A stretch of 16,710 nucleotides of DNA from Paracoccaceae bacterium (GTDB taxonomy: Bacteria > Pseudomonadota > Alphaproteobacteria > Rhodobacterales > Rhodobacteraceae), in the NCBI GenBank assembly GCA_009920225.1, contig RGAJ01000009.1:1-16710 (forward strand). Reading direction: 5' to 3'. This document shows positions 2,203 through 14,562 of the stretch, one piece after another. The notes below the pieces were generated by a model. The model was not told where the DNA came from, did no database searches, and saw only the letters and a program-made list of their open reading frames with translations. The position numbers and the translations under genes are program-made. Position 1 is the first letter of the stretch. Each line of letters opens with the position of its first letter.

Positions 2203-4503
2203 ATGAAAGTTGTTTGCTTGGGAGGTGGACCTGCGGGGCTGTATTTTGCGATCAGTCTGAAGCTTCGGGATGCGTCTCATGATGTTACCGTGTTAGAGCG
2301 AAACAAGGCCAATGATACTTTTGGTTGGGGGGTTGTTCTGTCTGACGACGCCCTTGGCCGAATGCAAAAGAACGACCCAATCAGCACGCAAACCATTCGG
2401 GATCACTTTGCCTATTGGGACGACATTGCGGTCGAACATAACGGGGTTCGCAGCGTGTCGCGCGGCCATGGGTTTGCGGGTATCGGTCGCAAACAAATGT
2501 TGATTGATCTCCAAGCCCGCGCGCGCGAATTGGGCGTCAAGATGGCGTTCGAGACCGAATTCAAATCTGCCGAGCAGTACCGATCAGAATACGATTTGGT
2601 GGTTGCAGCGGATGGCATCAACTCTTTGGTGCGGCGCGAATACCAAGAGGTGTTCCAACCCGATATAGACACGCGCCTTTGCAAATTTATCTGGCTTGGG
2701 ACGCATCAAAAATTTAACGACGCCTTTACCTTTATCTTTGAAAAAACCCCACACGGTTGGATGTGGGCCCATGTCTATCAATTCGATGACAACACGGCGA
2801 CATTTATCGTCGAATGCTTGCAGCCAACTTGGGACGCGTGGGGCTTTGAGCAGATGACCAAAGAAGAGACGGTCGAAACCTGTCGCCAGATTTTTGCCAA
2901 ATATCTGGATGGTCATGCGCTGATGTCGAATGCTGCGCATTTGCGCGGGTCTGCCGTCTGGATGAACTTTCCACGGGTGATTTGTGAAAAATGGTACCAT
3001 GAAAACGTCGTTCTCATGGGTGATGCGGCGGCCACTGGCCATTTCTCAATCGGGTCAGGATCACGTTTGGCCTTTGACAGCGCCATAGCGCTTGCAGATT
3101 TTCTGCACAGTGAGCCAACCTTGGAACAGGCATTCAAACGGTACCAAGCCGAACGCCGTCTTGAGGTGTTGCGCCTGCAATCTGCGGCACGCAATTCTTT
3201 GGAATGGTTTGAAGAGGTCGAACGTTATCTTGATCAGGACCCCGTCCAGTTCTGCTATAATCTTTTGACCCGCTCACAGCGGATCAGCCATGAAAACCTG
3301 CGATTGCGCGACCCAGAGTGGTTGGAAAGCGCCGAGCGTTGGTTCCAATCAAGCTCTGGCGTGCCAGCGAACGCGCCAGTACGCGCACCCATGTTTGCGC
3401 CCTATCAGCTTGGCGATATGACCCTGATAAACCGCATCGTTGTTTCCCCCATGGCACAATACAAAGCCATCGAAGGCACCCCCACCGATTGGCATCTGGT
3501 TCATTTGGGCGAACGCGCGAAAGGTGGTGCGGGTCTTGTTTATACCGAAATGACCTGTGTCAGCCCAATCGGTCGAATAACGCTCGGATGTCCGGGGCTT
3601 TATGCCCCCGAACATGAAGACAAGTGGCGCCAAATTGTTGGCTTTATCCATAAGGAAACTGAGGCAAAGATCTGTTGCCAAATCGGTCACGCAGGGCGCA
3701 AAGGATCGACGCAGTTGGGATGGGAAGAGATGGACGCGCCGCTCAAAGAGGGCAACTGGGACCTGATCTCGGCCTCTGCTATTCCATGGTCGCCGCGCAA
3801 TGCAACGCCGCGTGCCATGACCCGCGCGGATATGAATGTGGTGCGTGATCAATTTGTCTTGTCAACCGAAATGGCAGAACGCGCTGGATTTGACATGATC
3901 GAACTGCATGCCGCGCACGGCTATTTGGTCTCTTCCTTCATTTCACCTGTGTCGAACACGCGCACAGACGACTATGGTGGCAGCCTCACCAATCGCATGC
4001 GCTATCCATTAGAAATCTTTACGGCGATGCGCGCCGCTTGGCCCGCAGGGAAACCAATGGCGGTGCGCATCAGCGCAACCGATTGGGTCGGCGACCACGG
4101 TGTGACCCCAGAAGACGCCGTTGAAATCGCACGCATGTTCCGTGATGCGTGGGCGGACATTATTGACGTGTCCGCAGGTCAAACATCAATCGACGCCAAG
4201 CCCGTTTATGGCCGCATGTTCCAGACGCCGTTTTCAAACCGCATCCGCAACGAATTGAACATGCCAACGATGGCTGTTGGAAATATTTACGAACCCGACC
4301 ATGTCAATTCAATCCTTCTTGCAGGGCGTGCCGACCTTGTTTGTTTGGCCCGCCCCCACTTGGCGGATCCCTATTGGACGTTGCATGCCGGTGTCGATCT
4401 CAAGGATACGAATGTCCCATGGCCTAACCCCTATCTCGCCGGTCGCGACCAAGCGTACCGTCTGCGGGAACAGCAACAAGAAGGCGAATGCAGGCGACTC
4501 TGA
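2203..4503 (+). CDS. abmA: 2-aminobenzoyl-CoA monooxygenase/reductase (ACMR), fused two-flavin enzyme
   Basis: This 766-residue cytoplasmic enzyme fuses two flavoproteins. Residues 1 to about 380 are a salicylate-hydroxylase-type FAD monooxygenase: GxGxxG at 7-12 (LGGGPAG), Glu32 ending the second beta strand, the ADG motif with Asp137, and the MGD flavin motif at 272-274. Residues from about 395 to 755 are an old-yellow-enzyme reductase: [18 protein letters not shown] from 396, GHAGRKGS with His496, and the HAAHGYL block with His569 and His572 followed by [10 protein letters not shown]. The family hydroxylates 2-aminobenzoyl-CoA at C5 with O2 and NAD(P)H and then reduces the ring to 2-amino-5-oxocyclohex-1-ene-1-carbonyl-CoA. 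The size fits the reported 87-kDa fusion of Azoarcus evansii. Databases may call it bifunctional salicylyl-CoA 5-hydroxylase/oxidoreductase; the ligase, Rid and MarR neighbours favour 2-aminobenzoate. Its last codons overlap the broken dehydrogenase gene, so its native C-terminus may have been altered by a few residues. Confidence 0.88.
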
Positions 4504-4987
4504 AAGCGCACCGTTCCACAAAACAACATTGGATGCATGGCACCGCATGATGAACGTCAACTTGACCGGTGTGTTTTTGACCCTGCGCGAAGGGTTGACC
4601 CAGATGACCGGTTGGGGACGTTTGATCAGTGTGGCCTCAACCGCTGGGCTCAAGGGATATTCATATGTCGCGCCCTACTGCGCCGCCAAACATGGCGTCA
4701 TTGGTCTGACCCGCGCCCTCGCGCAAGAGGTCGCGACCAAAAACATCACCGCCAATGCCCTTTGCCCAGGGTTCATGGATACGGACATGACCGAACGATC
4801 AATTCAAAACATCATGGAAAAAACTGGCATGGATAAAGACACCGCGCGCGTGACACTTGCACGGCACAACCCCCAAAAACGCTTGATCCAACCAAGCGAG
4901 GTTGCCGCCACCGCGCTTTGGCTGTGTAGCCCTGGATCAGATGGGATCAACGGTCAGGCCATCGCAATTGCGGGGGGCGAGATATGA
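4487..4987 (+). pseudogene. Short-chain dehydrogenase (beta-hydroxyacyl-CoA type), N-terminus deleted
   Basis: From about 4487 the frame reads as a classical SDR, starting at the NAG motif ([14 protein letters not shown]) and running to the usual C-terminus (GQAIAIAGGE). Present are the NVNLTGVF helix, the active-site Ser (TCA 4637-4639) in SVAST, and YCAAK with Tyr (4676-4678) and Lys (4688-4690). Missing are the first 80-90 residues of a normal ~250-residue SDR, including TGxxxGxG and the first Rossmann strands that bind NAD(P). Upstream in this frame lies only abmA sequence read out of frame, so there is no dehydrogenase start; the first in-frame ATGs in the SDR part are at 4547 and 4550. 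The neighbours suggest it was the hydroxyacyl-CoA dehydrogenase of the pathway, one of the three beta-oxidation enzymes known in abm clusters. Without the cofactor half it should be inactive. An assembly or sequencing deletion is the main alternative. Confidence 0.8.
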
Positions 4988-5430
4988 CGGATCTGAGCTC
5001 TCTGACATTGCGGCGGTTGCGGGCTTGGATCCGGCTCTTGCGCTTTGTGCGCGGCGCGGAAAGCCAGCTTCGCGAATTTCTTAGGATTAATTTTGATACC
5101 ACCCTGCCCCGCTTTGACGTCGCAGCCGCGCTCTATCGGGTCAACAAACCGGTACGGATGAGCGAACTAAGCAAGATGCTATTGGTATCAAATGGAAATG
5201 TGACAACCGTTGTCGACAGGCTTGAAAAGGAAGGCAAGGCGCGGCGCATTGCGGATGAAACCGACAAGCGTGTCGTCAGCGTGGAATTGACGGAAGGCGG
5301 GCGCAACTGGTTCAAAGACGTCGCCGCCGCGCATTCGCAAGAGATCGACAGAATTTTCGAAAAGCTCGGACATGAAGACCTGTCACAGCTGCGCAACCTG
5401 ATTTCAATGATCACAAGGACACAGAACTGA
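4984..5430 (+). CDS. MarR-family transcriptional regulator of the aminobenzoate operon
   Basis: A 148-residue protein with the MarR winged-helix fold. Helical dimerisation segments flank a helix-turn-helix at about residues 59-85 ([23 protein letters not shown]), followed by the wing ([16 protein letters not shown]). Members near aromatic-CoA genes usually repress their operon until an aryl-CoA ester binds; the likely ligand here is 2-aminobenzoyl-CoA (inference). The start ATG overlaps the dehydrogenase stop (ATGA), so it is co-translated inside the operon and should be autoregulated. A MarR-like regulator is also part of the Azoarcus evansii abm cluster. The inverted repeat at 2106-2155 is the obvious candidate operator. 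Confidence 0.85.
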
Positions 5431-6239
5431 TGCAGATGACTGATCACAAACCTCGGCACTTTCATTGGTCCTGTGACGGGGGGATTGCAACCCTTCGGCT
5501 CAGCCGACCCGATCGCAAAAATCCATTGACTTTTGACAGCTATGCGGAACTGCGCGACACGTTTCGCAATCTTGTCTATGCAGATGACGTTGACGTCGTT
5601 GTTTTTGCCTCGAACGAAGGCAATTTTTGCTCGGGCGGGGATGTGCATGATATCATCGGCCCGCTGGTCGATATGGATATGAAGGGCCTTTTGGCATTTA
5701 CCCGAATGACCGGCGATCTGGTCAAGGCGATGATTGGCTGCGGCAAGCCGATCATTGCGGCGGTCGACGGCATCTGCGTCGGCGCAGGGGCAATCATTGC
5801 CATGGCCGCAGATCTGCGGTTGGCGACACCAGATGCAAAATGTGCGTTCTTGTTCACGCGCGTGGGCCTTGCCGGTTGTGACATGGGCGCCTGTGCTATG
5901 CTTCCTCGGATCATCGGACAAGGTCGCGCGGCAGAGCTGCTGTATACAGGGCGTGCCATGGACGCGGCCGAAGGCCACGCGTGGGGATTTTGGAATGCGC
6001 TGCATCCGGCCGATCTGCTTGATGCAGAGGCACACCGTCTGGCGCAGCGTCTGAAATCGGGGCCAACCTTTGCCCATGGGATCACAAAAACCCAGCTGAA
6101 CCAAGAATGGAACATGGGCCTCGAACAGGCAATCGAGGCAGAGGCGCAGGCGCAAGCAATCTGTATGCAAACACAGGATTTTCGGCGCGCCTATAACGCT
6201 TTTGTCAAAAAAGAAAAACCAAGTTTTGAGGGCAACTGA
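5430..6239 (+). CDS. Enoyl-CoA hydratase/isomerase (crotonase family)
   Basis: A 269-residue crotonase-fold protein. The two oxyanion-hole segments are visible at CSGGD (67-71) and GICVGAGA (114-121). In the usual catalytic-glutamate region the sequence reads [15 protein letters not shown] with Asp151, a variant seen in many aromatic-pathway members, so the exact reaction (hydration, isomerisation or ring hydrolysis) is open. In the abm pathway a hydratase of this family acts in the beta-oxidation-like steps on the alicyclic CoA ester. The start overlaps the MarR stop by one base (TGATG); a second ATG at 5436 is possible. It is followed at once by the acyl-CoA dehydrogenase gene. Confidence 0.85.
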
Positions 6240-7402
6240 TGTCTGACAAAAGCTATCTGGAATGGCCATTTCTTGAACAGCGTCACAGGGATCTGTCTGC
6301 CGCGCTGGAAGTTTGGGCGGCAGAGAACCTTGGCGCCGTGGATCATGCCGACACCGATGCCGCCTGCCGTCAATTGGTGCGCATTTTAGGTGAGGCCGGG
6401 TTTTTGATGCACTCTTCAGTTGATCCCGATCACGGCTCGATCCTTGATGTGCGCAGTTTGTGCCTTATTCGCGAAACTTTGGCCCGCCACGATGGGTTGG
6501 CAGACTTTGCTTTCGCGATGCAAGGACTGGGAACTGGGGCTATTTCCCTGTTCGGTTCAGATGAGCAAAAACAGAAATGGCTGCCGTTGACCCGTTCGGG
6601 CAAGGCGATTTCGGCCTTTGCGCTGACAGAACCACAGTCTGGATCAGACGTTGCAAATTCAACAATGACCGCCAAGCTTGAGGGGGATTGTTATGTACTC
6701 AACGGCGAAAAAACTTGGATTTCCAATGGCGGAATTGCAGATGTCTATACCCTCTTTGCCCGCACCGGAGAAGCACCGGGCGCCAAGGGATTGTCCGCCT
6801 TTATCGTGCCCGCGGATCTGCCCGGTTTTGAGGTGGTCGAGCGGCTGAACACCATCGCCCCCCACCCGCTTGCGCGTCTGAGGTTCAACAATTGCAAGGT
6901 CCCGTTGAACGCAATGCTTGGCAGACCCGGGCAAGGGTTCGCGATCGCAATGTCGGTGCTAGATGTGTTCCGATCAACCGTCGCGGCGGCAGCACTCGGA
7001 TTTGCGCGACGCGCCTTGGATGACACACTCACGCGGGTCGCAACACGCCATGTGCAAGGTGCCCCACTTTTTGAATTGCAAATGGTTCAAGGGCATATTG
7101 CCGATATGGCGCTTGACGTCGATGCCGCAGCACTCTTGGTGTATCGGGCCGCTTGGGCCAAAGACAGCGGCGCACCGCGCGTCACCCGCGAGGCAGCGAT
7201 GGCCAAGCTGTTTGCAACAGACCAAGCGCAAAAAGTCATCGACAAAGCCGTTCAGCTTCACGGAGGGGATGGCGTCAAATCGGACCAATCCGTCGAAAAA
7301 TTATACCGCGAAATCAGGGCATTGCGGATCTACGAAGGCGCGTCCGACGTTCAAAGAGTCATCATCGCCAGACAGGCCATGAACCAGCATTTGGGAGGAT
7401 AA
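6239..7402 (+). CDS. Acyl-CoA dehydrogenase
   Basis: A 387-residue protein with the complete acyl-CoA dehydrogenase fold. The FAD and substrate signature [11 protein letters not shown] and the KTWISNGG block lie in the middle domain. LHGGDGV follows, and the C-terminal [15 protein letters not shown] carries the expected catalytic base Glu366. It should oxidise an alicyclic or opened-ring acyl-CoA with FAD, passing electrons to ETF. In the operon it is the third beta-oxidation enzyme beside the hydratase and the broken dehydrogenase. Its ATG overlaps the hydratase stop by one base, indicating translational coupling. The natural substrate cannot be read from the sequence. Confidence 0.9.
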
Positions 7403-7405
7403 GGG

Positions 7406-9028
7406 ATGTTGGGACCCACAGCACATGTTGATACATTCGCCCGCGATGGGCTTCCGAAACAAGAGGATTGGCCAGACTTCTTGCTTGATGGGTTTGACTA
7501 CCCTGAATATTTAAACGTGGCTGTTGAATTAACAGATGCCCAAGTCGACAAGGGGTTTGGGGATAACATTGCCCTAATCGGCAATGGTCGGCAACGCACC
7601 TATAAAGAATTGGCGGACTGGACCAACCGACTTGCGCGAACTCTTGTCGAGGATCTTGGAGTGAAACCTGGAAATCGGGTGATGATCCGCTCTGCCAACA
7701 ATCCGGCTATGGTTGCCTGTTGGTTGGCGGTCACCAAGGCGGGGGCCGTTGCCGTCAATACAATGCCCATGCTGCGCGCGAGCGAACTTACCAAAATTGT
7801 GAACAAAGCCGAAATCACCCATGCGCTGTGCGACACACGGTTGATGGATGAATTGGCACTCTGCGCCAAAAACAGCCCCTTTCTGAAGACGGTTGTTGGT
7901 TTTGATGGCACCTCAAATCATGATGCTGAATTGGATCGACGGGCGCTGCAAAAGCCCGTGCGCTTTGATGCGATCAAAACAGGCCGAGACGATGTCGCGC
8001 TTTTGGGATTTACGTCCGGCACCACGGGCGAGCCAAAGGCAACCATGCATTTTCACCGTGACCTTTTGATCATCGCGGATGGGTACGCCAAGGACGTGTT
8101 GGGCGTCACACCAGATGATGTATTCGTAGGATCGCCGCCCTTGGCATTTACATTTGGGCTGGGTGGGCTTGCGGTATTTCCGCTGCGCTTTGGGGCAACC
8201 GCGACCCTTTTGGAAAATGCATCACCGCCAAATATGATGGAAATAATCCAGCACTACAAAGCCACCGTCTGCTTTACCGCCCCAACCGCCTATCGCGTTA
8301 TGCTTCAAGCGATGGAACAAGGCGCAGATCTATCAAGCCTTCGGGCCGCGGTGTCTGCGGGCGATACGTTGCCGGCACCCGTATACGAAGACTGGCATAA
8401 CAAGACCGGCAAACCGATGCTGGATGGGATCGGCGCAACCGAGATGTTGCACATATTCCTCAGCAACCGTTTCGACGATCACCGCCCTGCCTGCACTGGC
8501 AAACCGGTCGCGGGGTACGAGGCAAAGATTATTGACGACGACGGAAACGAATTGCCTGCAGGCGTCGCTGGCCGATTGGCTGTTCGCGGCCCAACGGGGT
8601 GCCGTTATCTGAATGATGATCGGCAGGGATCCTATGTCCAAAACGGTTGGAACGTCACCGGTGACAGCTTTATCAAAGATGAGGATGGATATTTTCATTT
8701 CGCCGCGCGTACCGACGATATGATTGTTTCGGCGGGCTACAACATTGCGGGTCCCGAAGTGGAAGCCGCGCTATTAACCCACGAGGCCGTTGCCGAATGC
8801 GCAGTCGTCGCCGCACCAGATGAACAGCGCGGCAGCATCGTTGAGGCCCATATCGTTCTGGCAGCTGGGTTTGACCCGTCTGAGGACATGTGCAAGGCAT
8901 TGCAGGACCATGTCAAGGCGACAATCGCCCCCTATAAATACCCGCGCTCAATACGGTTTCACACCTCGCTTCCCAAAACCCCAACAGGCAAAATTCAGCG
9001 TTATGTATTGCGTCAGACAGCAGGTTGA
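7406..9028 (+). CDS. abmG: 2-aminobenzoate-CoA ligase (benzoate-CoA ligase family)
   Basis: A 540-residue member of the adenylate-forming (ANL) superfamily. The ATP-binding P-loop FTSGTTGEPK is at about 202-211. GIGATEMLHIFLSN, typical of benzoate-type CoA ligases, TGD further on, and the C-terminal TGKIQRYVLR with catalytic Lys529 are all intact. It should convert an aryl carboxylate, ATP and CoA to the aryl-CoA, AMP and pyrophosphate. The assignment to 2-aminobenzoate rests on the neighbouring ACMR and Rid genes; benzoate or salicylate ligase is the alternative. GGGAGG at 7393-7398 stands 7 nt before the ATG, and only 3 nt separate it from the preceding stop. Confidence 0.85.
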   Translation: MLGPTAHVDTFARDGLPKQEDWPDFLLDGFDYPEYLNVAVELTDAQVDKGFGDNIALIGNGRQRTYKELADWTNRLARTLVEDLGVKPGNRVMIRSANNPAMVACWLAVTKAGAVAVNTMPMLRASELTKIVNKAEITHALCDTRLMDELALCAKNSPFLKTVVGFDGTSNHDAELDRRALQKPVRFDAIKTGRDDVALLGFTSGTTGEPKATMHFHRDLLIIADGYAKDVLGVTPDDVFVGSPPLAFTFGLGGLAVFPLRFGATATLLENASPPNMMEIIQHYKATVCFTAPTAYRVMLQAMEQGADLSSLRAAVSAGDTLPAPVYEDWHNKTGKPMLDGIGATEMLHIFLSNRFDDHRPACTGKPVAGYEAKIIDDDGNELPAGVAGRLAVRGPTGCRYLNDDRQGSYVQNGWNVTGDSFIKDEDGYFHFAARTDDMIVSAGYNIAGPEVEAALLTHEAVAECAVVAAPDEQRGSIVEAHIVLAAGFDPSEDMCKALQDHVKATIAPYKYPRSIRFHTSLPKTPTGKIQRYVLRQTAG

Positions 9029-9214: not shown

Positions 9215-10351
9215 ATGAAACTTAAACAACTCGCATTGGCCGCCTGCACCGCATTGGTTGCGGCAGGGGCGCAGGCCGAGGGCCTCAAGGTCGGGATGAT
9301 CACCACGCTTTCGGGTGGTGGGGCTGGACTTGGTATCGATGTTCGCGACGGCTTTATGCTGGCGATTGCGCAATCGGGTCGCACAGACATTGAAGTGGTC
9401 ATTGAAGATGATCAACAAAAACCGGACATCGCCGTACAGCTGGCAGACCGTATGATCCAATCGGAAAAGGTCGACGTTTTGACAGGTATCATCTGGTCAA
9501 ACCTTGCGATGGCCGTCGTCCCGAGCGCGGTTGCGCAGGGCAAATTTTATCTGTCACCCAACGCAGGTCCATCTGCATTAGCGGGCGAGCGGTGTCATCC
9601 GCTGTATTTTAACGTCGCATGGCAAAACGACACACTTCACGAAGCGGCGGGGGCCTATGCAGCTTCGGCAGGCTATAAAAACGCATTCATTCTGGCGCCG
9701 AACTATCCCGCGGGCACCGATGCGCTGACAGGGTTCAAGCGGTTATTCACGGGCAATTTGGCTGGCGAAATCTACACCAAATTGGGCCAAACCGACTATG
9801 CCGGTGAAATCGCGCAAATCCGCGCGTCGGGGGCCGATAGCGTCTATTTCTTCTTGCCAGGTGGCATGGGTATTTCGTTCCTAAAACAATACGCCGACAG
9901 CGGCGTCAATCTGCCGGTTGTTGGACCTGCGTTCAGCTTTGACCAAGGTATCTTGCAAGCGGTTGGTGATGCTGCCCTAGGTGTTCGCAACACAGCACAA
10001 TGGTCAAAAGATTTGGACAATCCAGTCAATGCCGCCTTTGTCGAAAGCTTCCAAGCACAATACGGCCGCTTGCCATCGCTTTATGCATCACAAGGCTTTG
10101 ACACGGCGCTCTTGCTCATCTCCGCGCTCGAATCTGCAGACGTAGGGGATCAAGATGCCTTCCGCAAAGCGCTCGAAGCAGCTGATTTTGCCTCGACCCG
10201 TGGTGATTTTGCCTTTGGCGCGAACCACCACCCTATTCAAGACATCTATGTGCGTGAAGTGATCAAAGAAGGTGACATTTATACAAACAAAATCGTGTCC
10301 CTTGGTCTTGAGGATCACGGCGACGTCTATGCACAAAACTGCAAGATGTAA
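9215..10351 (+). CDS. ABC transporter periplasmic binding protein for aromatic acid
   Basis: A 378-residue type-1 periplasmic binding protein. It begins with a Sec signal peptide (Lys3/Lys5, hydrophobic core, cleavage likely after AQA at residue 21), then GLKVGMITTLSGGGAGLG, the usual first strand of LivJ/aromatic-acid binding proteins. Cys127 and Cys376 (NCKM end) may form a disulfide. It captures the substrate in the periplasm and delivers it to the LivHM-type permease encoded next. The context points to 2-aminobenzoate or a related aryl acid rather than branched-chain amino acids; the Azoarcus evansii abm cluster also encodes such a protein. Specificity is inferred only from neighbours. 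Confidence 0.87.
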   Translation: MKLKQLALAACTALVAAGAQAEGLKVGMITTLSGGGAGLGIDVRDGFMLAIAQSGRTDIEVVIEDDQQKPDIAVQLADRMIQSEKVDVLTGIIWSNLAMAVVPSAVAQGKFYLSPNAGPSALAGERCHPLYFNVAWQNDTLHEAAGAYAASAGYKNAFILAPNYPAGTDALTGFKRLFTGNLAGEIYTKLGQTDYAGEIAQIRASGADSVYFFLPGGMGISFLKQYADSGVNLPVVGPAFSFDQGILQAVGDAALGVRNTAQWSKDLDNPVNAAFVESFQAQYGRLPSLYASQGFDTALLLISALESADVGDQDAFRKALEAADFASTRGDFAFGANHHPIQDIYVREVIKEGDIYTNKIVSLGLEDHGDVYAQNCKM

Positions 10352-10361
10352 GTAAAACTCT

Positions 10362-10390
10362 GTCTGCCCCGTTGAAACGGCGGGGCAGAC
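10362..10390 (+). terminator. Intercistronic hairpin between binding protein and permease genes
   Basis: A perfect GC-rich 10-bp stem (10362-10371 with 10381-10390) encloses a 9-nt loop, 10 nt after the binding-protein stop. The following bases (CTTGATTGG) lack a T-run. It is therefore more likely a partial attenuator or a 3' exonuclease barrier that keeps binding-protein mRNA in excess over permease mRNA than a full stop. Confidence 0.65.
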
Positions 10391-10408
10391 CTTGATTGGC
10401 AGGTTAAA

Positions 10409-11326
10409 ATGTCCCTTATTCTACTTGCAGAACAGACGCTGAACGGGCTGCAATTCGGAGTCATGCTGTTCTTGATGGCAGCTGGATTAACCTTGATCTT
10501 TGGGGTTATGGGACTGATAAATCTGGCCCATGGATCGCTGTATATGGTCGGGGCTTTCGCCGCGGCTGGAATGGCGGCGGCAACCGGGTCGTTTATGCTG
10601 GCCTTGATTGCAAGTCTGGTCGCCGCTGCGATCGCGGGTGTTTTGATTGAAATGACCGTTATTCGACGGCTCTACGACCGCGACCATCTAGATCAAGTGC
10701 TGGCAACATTTGCGCTTATCCTCATTTTTTCGGAAGGAACGCGGTGGGTGTTTGGATCGTTCCCGTTGTTCTTGGACAAACCTTCGTTTTTATCAGGCAC
10801 GGTGACTCTGCCCTTTAATGTCGAATATTCCGTCTATCGCCTGTCTCTCATTGTGGTGGGTATTCTTGTCGCGATCGGTTTATTTTGGATGATTGCGAAG
10901 ACGCGCATTGGTATTCGCATCCGCGCGGGCGAAAACGACCGCGAGATGATTGGCGCGTTGGGCGTTGATATATCGCGGCTGTACACTATGGTCTTTGCGC
11001 TTGGGGCAGCACTTGCGGGGCTTGCTGGTGCATTGATCGGCGCGATCCAATCGGTCCAAGTTGGCATGGGCGAACCGGTTTTGATCCTTGCCTTCGTTGT
11101 CATCGTTATTGGCGGAATTGGATCGATCAAAGGCGCGTTGATCGGTGCGATTTTGGTTGGGCTGACCGATACGTTGGGTCGGTTTTTGTTACCGCAAGCC
11201 TTTGCATTGATATTAGAGCCATCACAGGCTACGTCGGTCGGCTCTTCGTTGGCGTCGATGTCAATCTACATCCTGATGGCCGGCATTTTGTTGTTTCGCC
11301 CCAAGGGTCTTCTTGGGGGGGCATAA
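10409..11326 (+). CDS. livH: ABC transporter permease, LivH type
   Basis: A 305-residue, very hydrophobic inner-membrane protein with about eight predicted membrane spans. GLTLIFGVMGLINLAHGSLYM (residues about 26-46) is the hallmark of LivH permeases. ENDREMIGALGVD in the cytoplasmic loop is the coupling (EAA-like) region that contacts the ATPase. It pairs with LivM to form the transport channel. The symbol describes the family; the substrate in this operon is probably an aromatic acid. A weak AGG sits about 9 nt before the ATG. Confidence 0.88.
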   Translation: MSLILLAEQTLNGLQFGVMLFLMAAGLTLIFGVMGLINLAHGSLYMVGAFAAAGMAAATGSFMLALIASLVAAAIAGVLIEMTVIRRLYDRDHLDQVLATFALILIFSEGTRWVFGSFPLFLDKPSFLSGTVTLPFNVEYSVYRLSLIVVGILVAIGLFWMIAKTRIGIRIRAGENDREMIGALGVDISRLYTMVFALGAALAGLAGALIGAIQSVQVGMGEPVLILAFVVIVIGGIGSIKGALIGAILVGLTDTLGRFLLPQAFALILEPSQATSVGSSLASMSIYILMAGILLFRPKGLLGGA

Positions 11327-11327
11327 G

Positions 11328-12311
11328 ATGAAAAAAGAAACACTCCTTAACGCTGTTTTGATTGCCCTTTTTGTCGGAGTTGCCCTTGCCGCTTGGATCA
11401 TGGACGAACCCTATTTGATCACTCTCGCGACCAAAGCCGCGATTTTTGCCATTGCGGGCGTCGGCCTGAATTTCGCTTTGGGCTTTGGCGGCTTGGTCAG
11501 CTTTGGTCACGCGGTGTTCTTTGGGCTGGGTGGCTATGCGATGGGTATTCTTGCCTTTCATGCGCAAACCTATACCCCGATCCTAGAGTGGCCCTTTGCC
11601 ATAAACGGCACACGCTCCATGCCTGTGATCTGGTGTGTGGCGATTGTCGTCAGCGCGGTGGTGGCCGTCGGCATTGGCGCATTGTCACTGCGGACGAATG
11701 GCGTCTATTTCATCATGATCACCCTCGCCTTTGCGCAGATGTTTTATTATTTCGCGATTTCTTGGCCCACTTACGGTGGCGAAGACGGCCTGTCGATCTA
11801 TGTCCGCAATGAATTTCCGGGGCTGAACACCATGGACCCGATCCAGTACTTTGCCATATGCTTTACGCTTTTGCTTTTGGTGCTTTTCTTTGTGCACCGT
11901 GCTGCGCATTCCTCATTTGGCCTGCTGCTTCGGGCGGCACGCCAAAACGAAGAACGGGTTCAAGCAGTGGGACACACGCCGTTTCGGCTATATCTCACGG
12001 CGTTTGTGATTTCTGGGGCGATCACAGGTTTGGCAGGCGCACTTTTCGCCGATCTCAATCGGTTTGTCAGCCCAACACTTCTAAGCTGGCACACGTCTGG
12101 CGAAATCATGATCTTTGTCATTCTCGGGGGTGTCGGGCGTGTCTTTGGACCTGTGGCGGGTGCGGCCCTGTTTATATTGCTTGAATACGTGCTTGGGGGC
12201 CTCAGCGAATTTTGGCAGATTTACTTGGGCGCTATCTTGCTTGGTGTTGTCCTCTTTGCGCGCGGGGGTCTGTATGGGCTTATCGCTGGTCGCGAGGTTG
12301 CACATGACTGA
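11328..12311 (+). CDS. livM: ABC transporter permease, LivM type
   Basis: A 327-residue membrane protein. The N-terminus (MKKETLLNAVLIALFVGVAL) is a membrane anchor, followed by GVGLNFALGFGGLVSFGHAVFFG, the LivM signature, and the coupling loop RAARQNEERVQAVGH. I prefer the ATG at 11328 to the in-frame TTG at 11313, since a G-run (about 11315-11321) gives a ribosome site and the TTG lies inside livH. It starts one base after the LivH stop. It forms the second half of the membrane channel. Confidence 0.87.
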   Translation: MKKETLLNAVLIALFVGVALAAWIMDEPYLITLATKAAIFAIAGVGLNFALGFGGLVSFGHAVFFGLGGYAMGILAFHAQTYTPILEWPFAINGTRSMPVIWCVAIVVSAVVAVGIGALSLRTNGVYFIMITLAFAQMFYYFAISWPTYGGEDGLSIYVRNEFPGLNTMDPIQYFAICFTLLLLVLFFVHRAAHSSFGLLLRAARQNEERVQAVGHTPFRLYLTAFVISGAITGLAGALFADLNRFVSPTLLSWHTSGEIMIFVILGGVGRVFGPVAGAALFILLEYVLGGLSEFWQIYLGAILLGVVLFARGGLYGLIAGREVAHD

Positions 12312-13059
12312 TCCAGTTCTAGAAATCCGCGGCATCAGCAAAAGTTTTGGGGGACTGAAAGCCAGCAACAATATCACGCTAGACCTGCGACCGGGCGAAA
12401 TACACGGGCTGATCGGTCCGAACGGTGCGGGCAAATCGACCTTGATCAAACAGATCACCGGCAACCTGACGCCAGACAGTGGCAGCATATATTTCAACGG
12501 CCAGAACGTCAGCCATCTGTCCACAGCCGCGCGGGCGCGGCTTGGTATGGGGCGGACCTTTCAAATTTCGTCTTTGGCGATGGACTACACCGTTCTGCAA
12601 AATGTGGTGATGGGTGCACTGGGCCAGCGCGGAAATATCTTTCGGTTTTTCAATAGCGTGATGAAAGACGCCGAATTGATCAAGGTTGCGGAAGATGCGC
12701 TTGAACAAGTTGGGCTTGAGGATTGCAGAACCTTTCGCACGTCGGATTTGTCCCACGGGCAACGCCGCCAGCTTGAGGTCGCGGTTGCGCTCACGCTCCG
12801 ACCAAAGGCGTTTTTGATGGATGAGCCGATGGCCGGTCTGGGGGCCGAAGGATCGCAACGGCTGATTGGATTTCTGGACCAACTGCGCCACCAAGCGCCC
12901 ATCATGTTAGTGGAACATGATATGGACGCGGTCTTTGCACTTGCTGATCGGATCAGCGTTCTGGTCTATGGCGAAATCATCGCAACAGGCAGCGCAGAGG
13001 AAATCCGCTCAAACGCGCTGGTCCGCTCGGCCTATCTGGGAGAGGGGGACGCAGCATGA
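12304..13059 (+). CDS. livG: ABC transporter ATPase, LivG type
   Basis: A 251-residue nucleotide-binding subunit: Walker A GPNGAGKS, Q-loop region GRTFQIS, signature LSHGQRRQLE, Walker B AFLMDEPMAGL and switch His in VEHDMD. The ATG at 12304 overlaps the last 8 nt of livM and gives MTDPVLEIRGISKSF, the normal family start; the open frame reaches further upstream, but that part is livM read in another frame. It powers the importer as a heterodimer with LivF. Confidence 0.9.
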   Translation: MTDPVLEIRGISKSFGGLKASNNITLDLRPGEIHGLIGPNGAGKSTLIKQITGNLTPDSGSIYFNGQNVSHLSTAARARLGMGRTFQISSLAMDYTVLQNVVMGALGQRGNIFRFFNSVMKDAELIKVAEDALEQVGLEDCRTFRTSDLSHGQRRQLEVAVALTLRPKAFLMDEPMAGLGAEGSQRLIGFLDQLRHQAPIMLVEHDMDAVFALADRISVLVYGEIIATGSAEEIRSNALVRSAYLGEGDAA

Positions 13060-13745
13060 ACCTCTTGAACCTTGCAAATATCTCTGCGTTTTATGACCAT
13101 TCGCAAGCGCTGTTTGATGTGAATCTATCGCTTGACGATGGGCAGGTCTTGGCGCTCATGGGGCGCAATGGCATGGGCAAATCGACCACGATCAAGGTGA
13201 TCTGCCGCATGATGCGCAACCAAGGGGGCACGATCGTTTTCAACGGCGCGGACCTGTCCCGTATGCCCGCCCACAAGGCCGCCCGCGCAGGCATTGGGTT
13301 GGTTCCCGAAGGCCGGCGGTGTTTCAAAGACTTGACCGTGTATGAAAATCTAATCGCTGCAGCCCGCGCAGGCGAATGGGATTTTGACCGCGTCGCCACG
13401 CTGTTTCCAAGGTTGAAAGAGCGCAAGGATCAACGATCAGGCACATTATCCGGCGGCGAACAACAAATGTTGGCCATTGGTCGCGCGCTGATGACCAATC
13501 CGCGATTGTTATTGCTGGACGAAGCAACCGAAGGATTGGCCCCTGTGGTACGCGCCGAAATCTGGGCCGCGATCGCAACGCTCAAATCGCAAACGGGCAT
13601 GGCGATCATTGTGGTGGATAAATCGCTGCGCGAACTGGGCACGATCGCAGACACAGCCGTGATTTTGGAAAAAGGCACATCTGTCTGGTCGGGCGCATTT
13701 TCGGCGCTCACCCCTGCAATCACTGACACGTACCTCGGGATCTGA
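13056..13745 (+). CDS. livF: ABC transporter ATPase, LivF type
   Basis: A 229-residue ATPase: Walker A GRNGMGKST, signature LSGGEQQML, Walker B LLLLDEATEGLAP. Where most ABC ATPases have the switch His (or Gln in LivF proteins), it reads VVDKSLREL, with Lys in that position, as in some aromatic-acid LivF relatives. The start overlaps the livG stop by 4 nt (ATGA). It completes the five-part importer. Confidence 0.9.
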   Translation: MNLLNLANISAFYDHSQALFDVNLSLDDGQVLALMGRNGMGKSTTIKVICRMMRNQGGTIVFNGADLSRMPAHKAARAGIGLVPEGRRCFKDLTVYENLIAAARAGEWDFDRVATLFPRLKERKDQRSGTLSGGEQQMLAIGRALMTNPRLLLLDEATEGLAPVVRAEIWAAIATLKSQTGMAIIVVDKSLRELGTIADTAVILEKGTSVWSGAFSALTPAITDTYLGI

Positions 13746-13748
13746 TCA

Positions 13749-14165
13749 GTGGCTTTCCTCTATCCCCAAAAAGTGATGTTCAAACATTGCGATCCCGCGG
13801 GCATCGTCTTTTACCCCCGCTATTTCGAAATGATCAACGATTGCGTTGAAGCCTTTTTTGAAGATGTTTTGGTGCTGCCTTTTTCTGCCCTGCACAAAAC
13901 AGGGGGCGTCCCCACCGCCGAGATCACCACGCGCTTTACCGCCCCAAGCAGGTTGGGTGACATTCTCTCCATCCGATTAGACGTTACAAAACTTGGACGC
14001 AGCTCCGTTGGGGTGCAGATCCAAGCGGAGTGTGGGGAACAAACGCGGTTTTACGCAAATTCGACCCTCGTATTTGTGAATGAGTTAGGAAAGCCAACCT
14101 CTTGGCCCGCGCCCGTGCGCGAAAAATTGGAAAAATGTTTAAAGGACGACGCCAATGACACATGA
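13749..14165 (+). CDS. Hotdog-fold acyl-CoA thioesterase (4-hydroxybenzoyl-CoA thioesterase type)
   Basis: A 138-residue protein of the 4HBT thioesterase family. HCDPAGIVFYPRYFE near the N-terminus carries the catalytic Asp15 and matches the active-site segment of Pseudomonas 4-hydroxybenzoyl-CoA thioesterase. It should hydrolyse an aryl- or acyl-CoA ester, perhaps to release CoA from dead-end thioesters or to end the pathway. A GTG start 3 nt after the livF stop gives a normal length; no good ribosome site is seen, so translation is probably coupled to livF. I do not recall this gene in the described Azoarcus cluster, so its role here is open. Confidence 0.83.
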   Translation: MAFLYPQKVMFKHCDPAGIVFYPRYFEMINDCVEAFFEDVLVLPFSALHKTGGVPTAEITTRFTAPSRLGDILSIRLDVTKLGRSSVGVQIQAECGEQTRFYANSTLVFVNELGKPTSWPAPVREKLEKCLKDDANDT

Positions 14166-14562
14166 AATCATCCAACCCGATAACTGGGCGCCTGCAAAGG
14201 GCTATGCCAATGGTGTTTTGACGTCCGATGGGACGCTTTATATCGGTGGTCAAATTGGATGGGATGCAGATCAGGTGTTTCGATCTCATGATTTTGTAAG
14301 CCAGATGGAAACCGCCCTCACCAACATCCGCGCAATTGTAGAAACCGCAGGCGGGCGCGTCGAGGATATCGTGCGCATGACATGGTTTGTCGTTGATAAA
14401 AAAGAATACTTGGCCAAACAGCGCGAAGTTGGCGAAGCCTACCGCCGCGTGTTTGGCCGTCACTTTCCGGCGATGACAATGGTTGTGGTGGCAGGTTTGA
14501 TTGAAGACGAGGCGCTCGTCGAGATTGAAGCAACCGCGCAACTGAAGGGGCGAGACGGTTAA
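14155..14562 (+). CDS. Rid (YjgF/YER057c/UK114) family protein
   Basis: A 135-residue Rid-family protein. The family forms trimers that hydrolyse reactive enamines and imines. The Glu-containing end motif VEIEATAQL (Glu123, Glu125) is present. The Arg of archetypal RidA (PAR-S/T, Arg105 in E. coli), which holds the substrate carboxylate, is replaced by Met107 (HFPAMTMV). It overlaps the thioesterase by 11 nt and ends the operon. The Azoarcus evansii abm cluster encodes a protein then called a translation inhibitor, the older name of this family. Since the ACMR product is an enamine, a role in removing its amino group is plausible but not shown. Confidence 0.85.
   Translation: MTHEIIQPDNWAPAKGYANGVLTSDGTLYIGGQIGWDADQVFRSHDFVSQMETALTNIRAIVETAGGRVEDIVRMTWFVVDKKEYLAKQREVGEAYRRVFGRHFPAMTMVVVAGLIEDEALVEIEATAQLKGRDG

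Follow-up and report, generated by a model that had tools for sequence, protein, structure and literature searches.

In the draft genome of a Paracoccaceae bacterium, the short-chain dehydrogenase/reductase (SDR) gene of an abm operon has lost the part coding for the cofactor-binding half of its product, and what is left of it is joined to the end of abmA, with the junction at 4483/4484 of the window (the whole stretch of 16,710 nucleotides that was analysed, contig C565 of the source assembly). The initial annotation had described this arrangement, which was confirmed in the contig. Its origin is put, at a little better than an even chance, in a real and recent strain-level deletion of about 247 bp that brought codon 80 of the SDR gene up against the 3' end of abmA, a reading that stands slightly ahead of an assembly or library artefact. 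Given database proteins almost identical to the products of both genes, the truncation is private to one strain or to one assembly and is not a new kind of gene.

The junction and the dehydrogenase remnant

Residues 1–760 of the window AbmA matched the NF006101 model with 1260 bits against a cut-off of 1078, which identifies a two-domain flavoprotein, and the protein is normal up to Glu760 (codon 4480–4482). The abmA sequence then reads ...CAAGAAG and passes directly into SDR sequence, GCGAATGCAGG..., after which AbmA ends out of frame in GECRRL-stop (stop codon 4501–4503), whereas P0121, the best database AbmA (98% identical, representing a cluster of 42), has the ordinary tail EAIRV, i.e., it ends in QQQEAIRV and thus has AIRV-stop where the window departs. 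The net change is the loss of the last four codons and the gain of six. The frame of the SDR is open from 4259 to its stop codon at 4985–4987, and is SDR-like only from 4484 (ANAGDSES...).

Table 1. Features of the window around and downstream of the abmA–SDR junction
Feature	Coordinates	Strand	Evidence
abmA, 2-aminobenzoyl-CoA monooxygenase/reductase (bifunctional salicylyl-CoA 5-hydroxylase/oxidoreductase family)	2203..4503	+	NF006101; P0121 98% identical
Deletion junction, abmA ...GAAG / GCGAAT... at SDR codon 80	4483..4484	+	Sequence compared with P0121 and P0001
Remnant of the abm-operon SDR, codons 80–246 plus stop	4484..4987	+	PF13561, PF00106, P0001
First in-frame ATG codons of the remnant (ATGATG)	4547..4552	+	Sequence; TTG at 4529
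MarR-family regulator; ATG overlaps SDR stop (ATGA)	4984..5430	+	PF01047, sequence
Enoyl-CoA hydratase-family protein	5430..6239	+	NF006107, 477.6 bits, cut-off 330
Acyl-CoA dehydrogenase-family protein	6239..7402	+	21 NCBIfam matches, all below cut-offs
Benzoate/2-aminobenzoate-CoA ligase-type protein	7406..9028	+	TIGR02262, 363.9 bits, just below cut-off 375.25
ABC uptake system, branched-chain amino acid type (binding protein, two permeases, two ATPases)	9215..13745	+	Binding protein matches below cut-off; rest ORF reading
4HBT-type thioesterase	13749..14165	+	PF13279, PF03061
Rid-family enamine/imine deaminase	14155..14562	+	PF01042; TIGR00004 below cut-off

The remnant amounts to 167 open codons (504 bp) that lack a start codon, and is therefore not full length when set beside the 239–255 residues of its relatives. 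Its Pfam matches begin at profile position 81 (PF13561) and 84 (PF00106), and the 25 NCBIfam models listed likewise match from about position 80–105 onward. The TGxxxGxG motif, found at residues 11–18 of the full-length P0001, is absent from 4484–4987, while NAG81, Asn103, Ser131, Tyr144 and Lys148 (P0001 numbering), which we take to be the classical short-chain dehydrogenase/reductase motif and catalytic residues, are all kept. Compared with residues 80–246 of P0001 the remnant is 99% identical; one of 166 residues (81–246) differs, at remnant residue 86, which leaves the motif and the catalytic residues untouched, and no decay was seen. The initial annotation was thus right that the remainder is open to the C-terminus with its Ser-Tyr-Lys in place, and that the SDR starts abruptly at the NAG motif, though the break falls at residue 80 and not at about 85.

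A missing stretch with the start codon and the TGxxxGxG region had also been proposed, and this was borne out except for its size, which is estimated at 247 bp and not at 250–280 bp. The figure (79 codons of the SDR together with the 10 bp of abmA that precede the overlapping start) derives from the proteins and assumes that the intact copy has the four-base overlap seen in relatives. It agrees with the plasmid records, which match the window in two pieces and by subtraction carry 241–277 more bases (20 listed of 68 matching records). The exact junction was found in one of 394 genomes of the family, namely the source genome itself (G000, at one place), and its absence elsewhere is weak evidence since nearly all of the others belong to other genera. 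When the protein database, whose clustering at 90% could hide short variants, was searched with the fusion frame, one candidate came up and none scored. Programmed frameshifting and a novel fusion protein were both rejected as explanations: the abmA frame ends 20 bases past the break, the SDR half has no binding fold, and none of the 76 loci in which an SDR follows abmA has this form.

Intact operons among relatives

A scan of genome contigs yielded 227 AbmA relatives, of which 80 loci were retained. The SDR follows abmA on the same strand in 76 of the 80, with a length of 239–255 residues, YxxxK in every case and TGxxxGxG in 75 (the exception being L054), and in 72 of the 76 there is a four-base overlap between its start and the stop of abmA (ATGA in 68, GTGA in 4). 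Comparison with related abmA–SDR regions had been proposed as a check, and as 76 of the 80 related loci carry the SDR at full size, unlike the window, the break goes beyond chance. A full-size SDR after abmA is, however, not strictly defining of the operon: in L057 (Cribrihabitans marinus) and L070 (Rhodobacteraceae bacterium HLUCCO07), two of the 80, abmA overlaps marR by ATGA with no SDR between them, and genes read as hydratase, dehydrogenase and ligase lie downstream of marR. These two loci resemble the window in having no working SDR between abmA and marR, but in them the gene is cleanly absent, whereas the window retains its 504-bp remnant. In both, the SDR-less arrangement is found from about 5290–5300 onward. 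Of the other two loci lacking the SDR, L060 sits on a contig that stops 138 bases after abmA, and in L033 no downstream abm gene was recognised among same-strand ORFs over 90 aa.

The closest comparison is with Sediminimonas qiaohouensis (L023), in which the SDR has the same position and direction and to which the remnant is 78% identical; like P0001, this SDR has codons 1–79, whereas the window has neither these nor the overlap with abmA. The 76 abmA-adjacent SDRs are 42–71% identical to P0001. AbmA itself was 76–85% identical in these comparisons (L017–L096), though the adjacent SDRs vary more widely, a pattern that an exchange of the gene at this site could give.

P0001 is a full-length SDR of 246 residues, with TGGGSGIG at residues 11–18, whose best match by sequence among solved structures is 9fe6, an SDR family oxidoreductase. 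It stands for a cluster of 43 sequences, as P0121 does for 42, both at 90% identity and with sizes that count all members and not the full-length forms alone. The existence of this near-identical full-length SDR and of the normal-tailed P0121 shows that neither the lineage nor the species is fixed for the loss.

Between the window AbmA and P0121, 11 of the 12 differences fall within residues 461–650, a clustering with a probability of about 5e-5 by simulation in a test chosen post hoc. Among the 120 database AbmA listed of 7920, the window's Leu461 is Pro in 118 and its Trp650 is Gly in 118, and P0121 is odd at a site of its own (Ala536, Pro in the other 119). Where columns are conserved to 97% or more, the window AbmA departs from the norm at three and other sequences at up to ten, so the window is not unusual in this respect. 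The clustered differences hint at strain recombination or at a mixed consensus.

Origin of the truncation

Under the favoured reading, a private deletion would have removed the last four AbmA codons and, from the SDR, its start and its dinucleotide-binding half, most likely in the sequenced cells and through illegitimate recombination that needed little homology or none; the SDR would be inactivated, and AbmA, altered only at its C-terminal tail, would probably be unharmed. With a full-length SDR at 99% identity and a normal AbmA at 98% among the database proteins, the event is recent and strain-level, and the single difference among 166 residues suggests that it is young. Going by the residues of P0121 and P0001, the two break ends have no base in common at the junction, since abmA continues C-N-A-T-H and A-T-H precedes SDR codon 80. 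A k-mer assembler would have had no shared bases to collapse, so that a collapse is unlikely and the join was probably spanned by some read or molecule. Eight of 11 relatives ending in EAIRV use GCG ATC for Ala-Ile, and if the intact copy does so too, GCGA would stand at both break ends, a possible microhomology offset by one base from the junction observed.

An artefact is given somewhat less than an even chance. By this account, the operon is intact in the cells of a mixed-strain sample, and the join was produced by a chimeric read, the forced merging of contigs or the closing of a gap. The source assembly is a fragmented draft (586 contigs, 2.43 Mb, 92.31% complete, 2.66% contamination), near-identical full-length proteins exist, and the remnant has no sign of decay; Leu461, Trp650 and the clustering of the AbmA differences would fit a mixed or low-coverage consensus, and neither the database (for the fusion frame) nor the family genomes (for the junction) provided a second sighting. 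Against this stand the lack of shared sequence at the break ends, the ordinary number of conserved-column departures in AbmA and the state of the remaining contig genes, which are open: by reading, all are uncut except at the contig ends and in a possible transposase remnant. The latter, a frame at 1691–1942 (about 1690–1942 of the window), presumably resembles the end of an IS3-type transposase and had no Pfam match; no gene was recognised in 745–2200, upstream of abmA.

The assembled sequence of the genome has no second intact abmA/SDR copy, by DNA and AbmA searches. AbmA is encoded once, and the only other match is partial and 28% identical (residues 390–726, the OYE domain). In two assemblies of the same genus, G001 and G002 (84% and 81% complete), the AbmA matches were partial, at 26–34% identity, with no orthologue; the abm operon may be patchy in the genus, acquired, or unassembled in these two genomes.

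The initial annotation had allowed for a recent natural deletion, an assembly error or an adaptive loss compensated by another dehydrogenase. The first two both stand; the third, a lineage-level or adaptive loss made good by another dehydrogenase or by community partners, is very improbable. The loci of L057 and L070 speak for it, in that the gene can evidently be lost or its role served elsewhere, but the same population or a sister one has a full-length protein at 99% identity, and the remnant is undecayed. Searches of the source assembly with P0001 and the SDR, which took up a suggestion that a close SDR might be found elsewhere in the genome, brought up, besides the remnant, nothing above 41% identity; the two next-best SDRs reached 34% and 39–41%, and compensation by another dehydrogenase thus has no support from the sequences at hand. 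An SDR paralogue could still sit in the unassembled part of the genome, the assembly being 92.3% complete. Three of the best SDR paralogues of the source assembly were, moreover, only 24–34% identical to the paralogue class of L057 and L070 (L136/L138/L139/L140), a class that Sediminimonas L023 carries alongside its full abm SDR.

The best SDRs in the genomes of L057, L070 and L033 are at most 49, 44 and 49% identical to P0001 (E 1e-35). The abmA-adjacent SDR nearest to the best L057 and L070 paralogues is that of L096 (59% and 53%), and the best SDR of the L033 genome has 70% identity with the one next to abmA in L034. By reading, the best L057 and L070 SDRs lie near, not beside, a transhydrogenase-like gene. 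With nothing above 49% and 44% identity elsewhere in L057 and L070, the SDR step may be dispensable there or served by another enzyme.

That the short remnant is a working enzyme or regulatory protein is very improbable: its frame is open and its catalytic residues are retained, but the short form is absent among the 76 SDRs after abmA, and with the dinucleotide-binding half missing and no obvious ribosome site in the sequence directly upstream of the ATGATG at 4547, it should be enzymatically dead.

The pathway and the meaning of a deletion

The window groups genes for an AbmA-type flavoprotein and for CoA ligase-type, hydratase-type, acyl-CoA dehydrogenase-type and Rid-type proteins, and the closest pathway for comparison is the 2-aminobenzoyl-CoA pathway of Azoarcus evansii, by its first two steps as given in the available part of PMC4539516; in the window the SDR is broken. 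According to the available part of PMC3534580, a CoA ester, possibly cyclohexanedione-carboxyl-CoA, occurs in Arthrobacter Rue61a only in anthranilate-grown cells. No role for an SDR in the 2-aminobenzoyl-CoA pathway was found in the available parts of PMC4539516, PMC3534580, PMC9007349 and PMC6221969, and where the terms "2-aminobenzoyl-CoA" and "short-chain dehydrogenase" appear together, in the available part of PMC6221969, the latter means an enzyme of an indole pathway. The SDR may reduce or oxidise a ring keto or hydroxy group after the pathway steps named above. The name AbmB for it is a label of the initial annotation that no search result backed.

By itself the truncation means little, being a further case of a gene cut short in a draft assembly, and it cautions against reading the loss of a pathway from a single draft contig when a near-identical full-length protein is public. 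If the deletion is real, the dehydrogenase/reductase step after the AbmA product should be blocked or slowed, and MarR would lose the ribosomes arriving from the SDR; a weaker translation of the regulator is possible, and lower MarR after the loss of the SDR start could derepress the operon. It is a long shot that a living deletion strain stops after the AbmA product and passes this or an earlier intermediate to neighbours with an intact operon, as a first step toward operons of the L057 and L070 type. The operons running directly from abmA to marR make the need for the SDR step testable.
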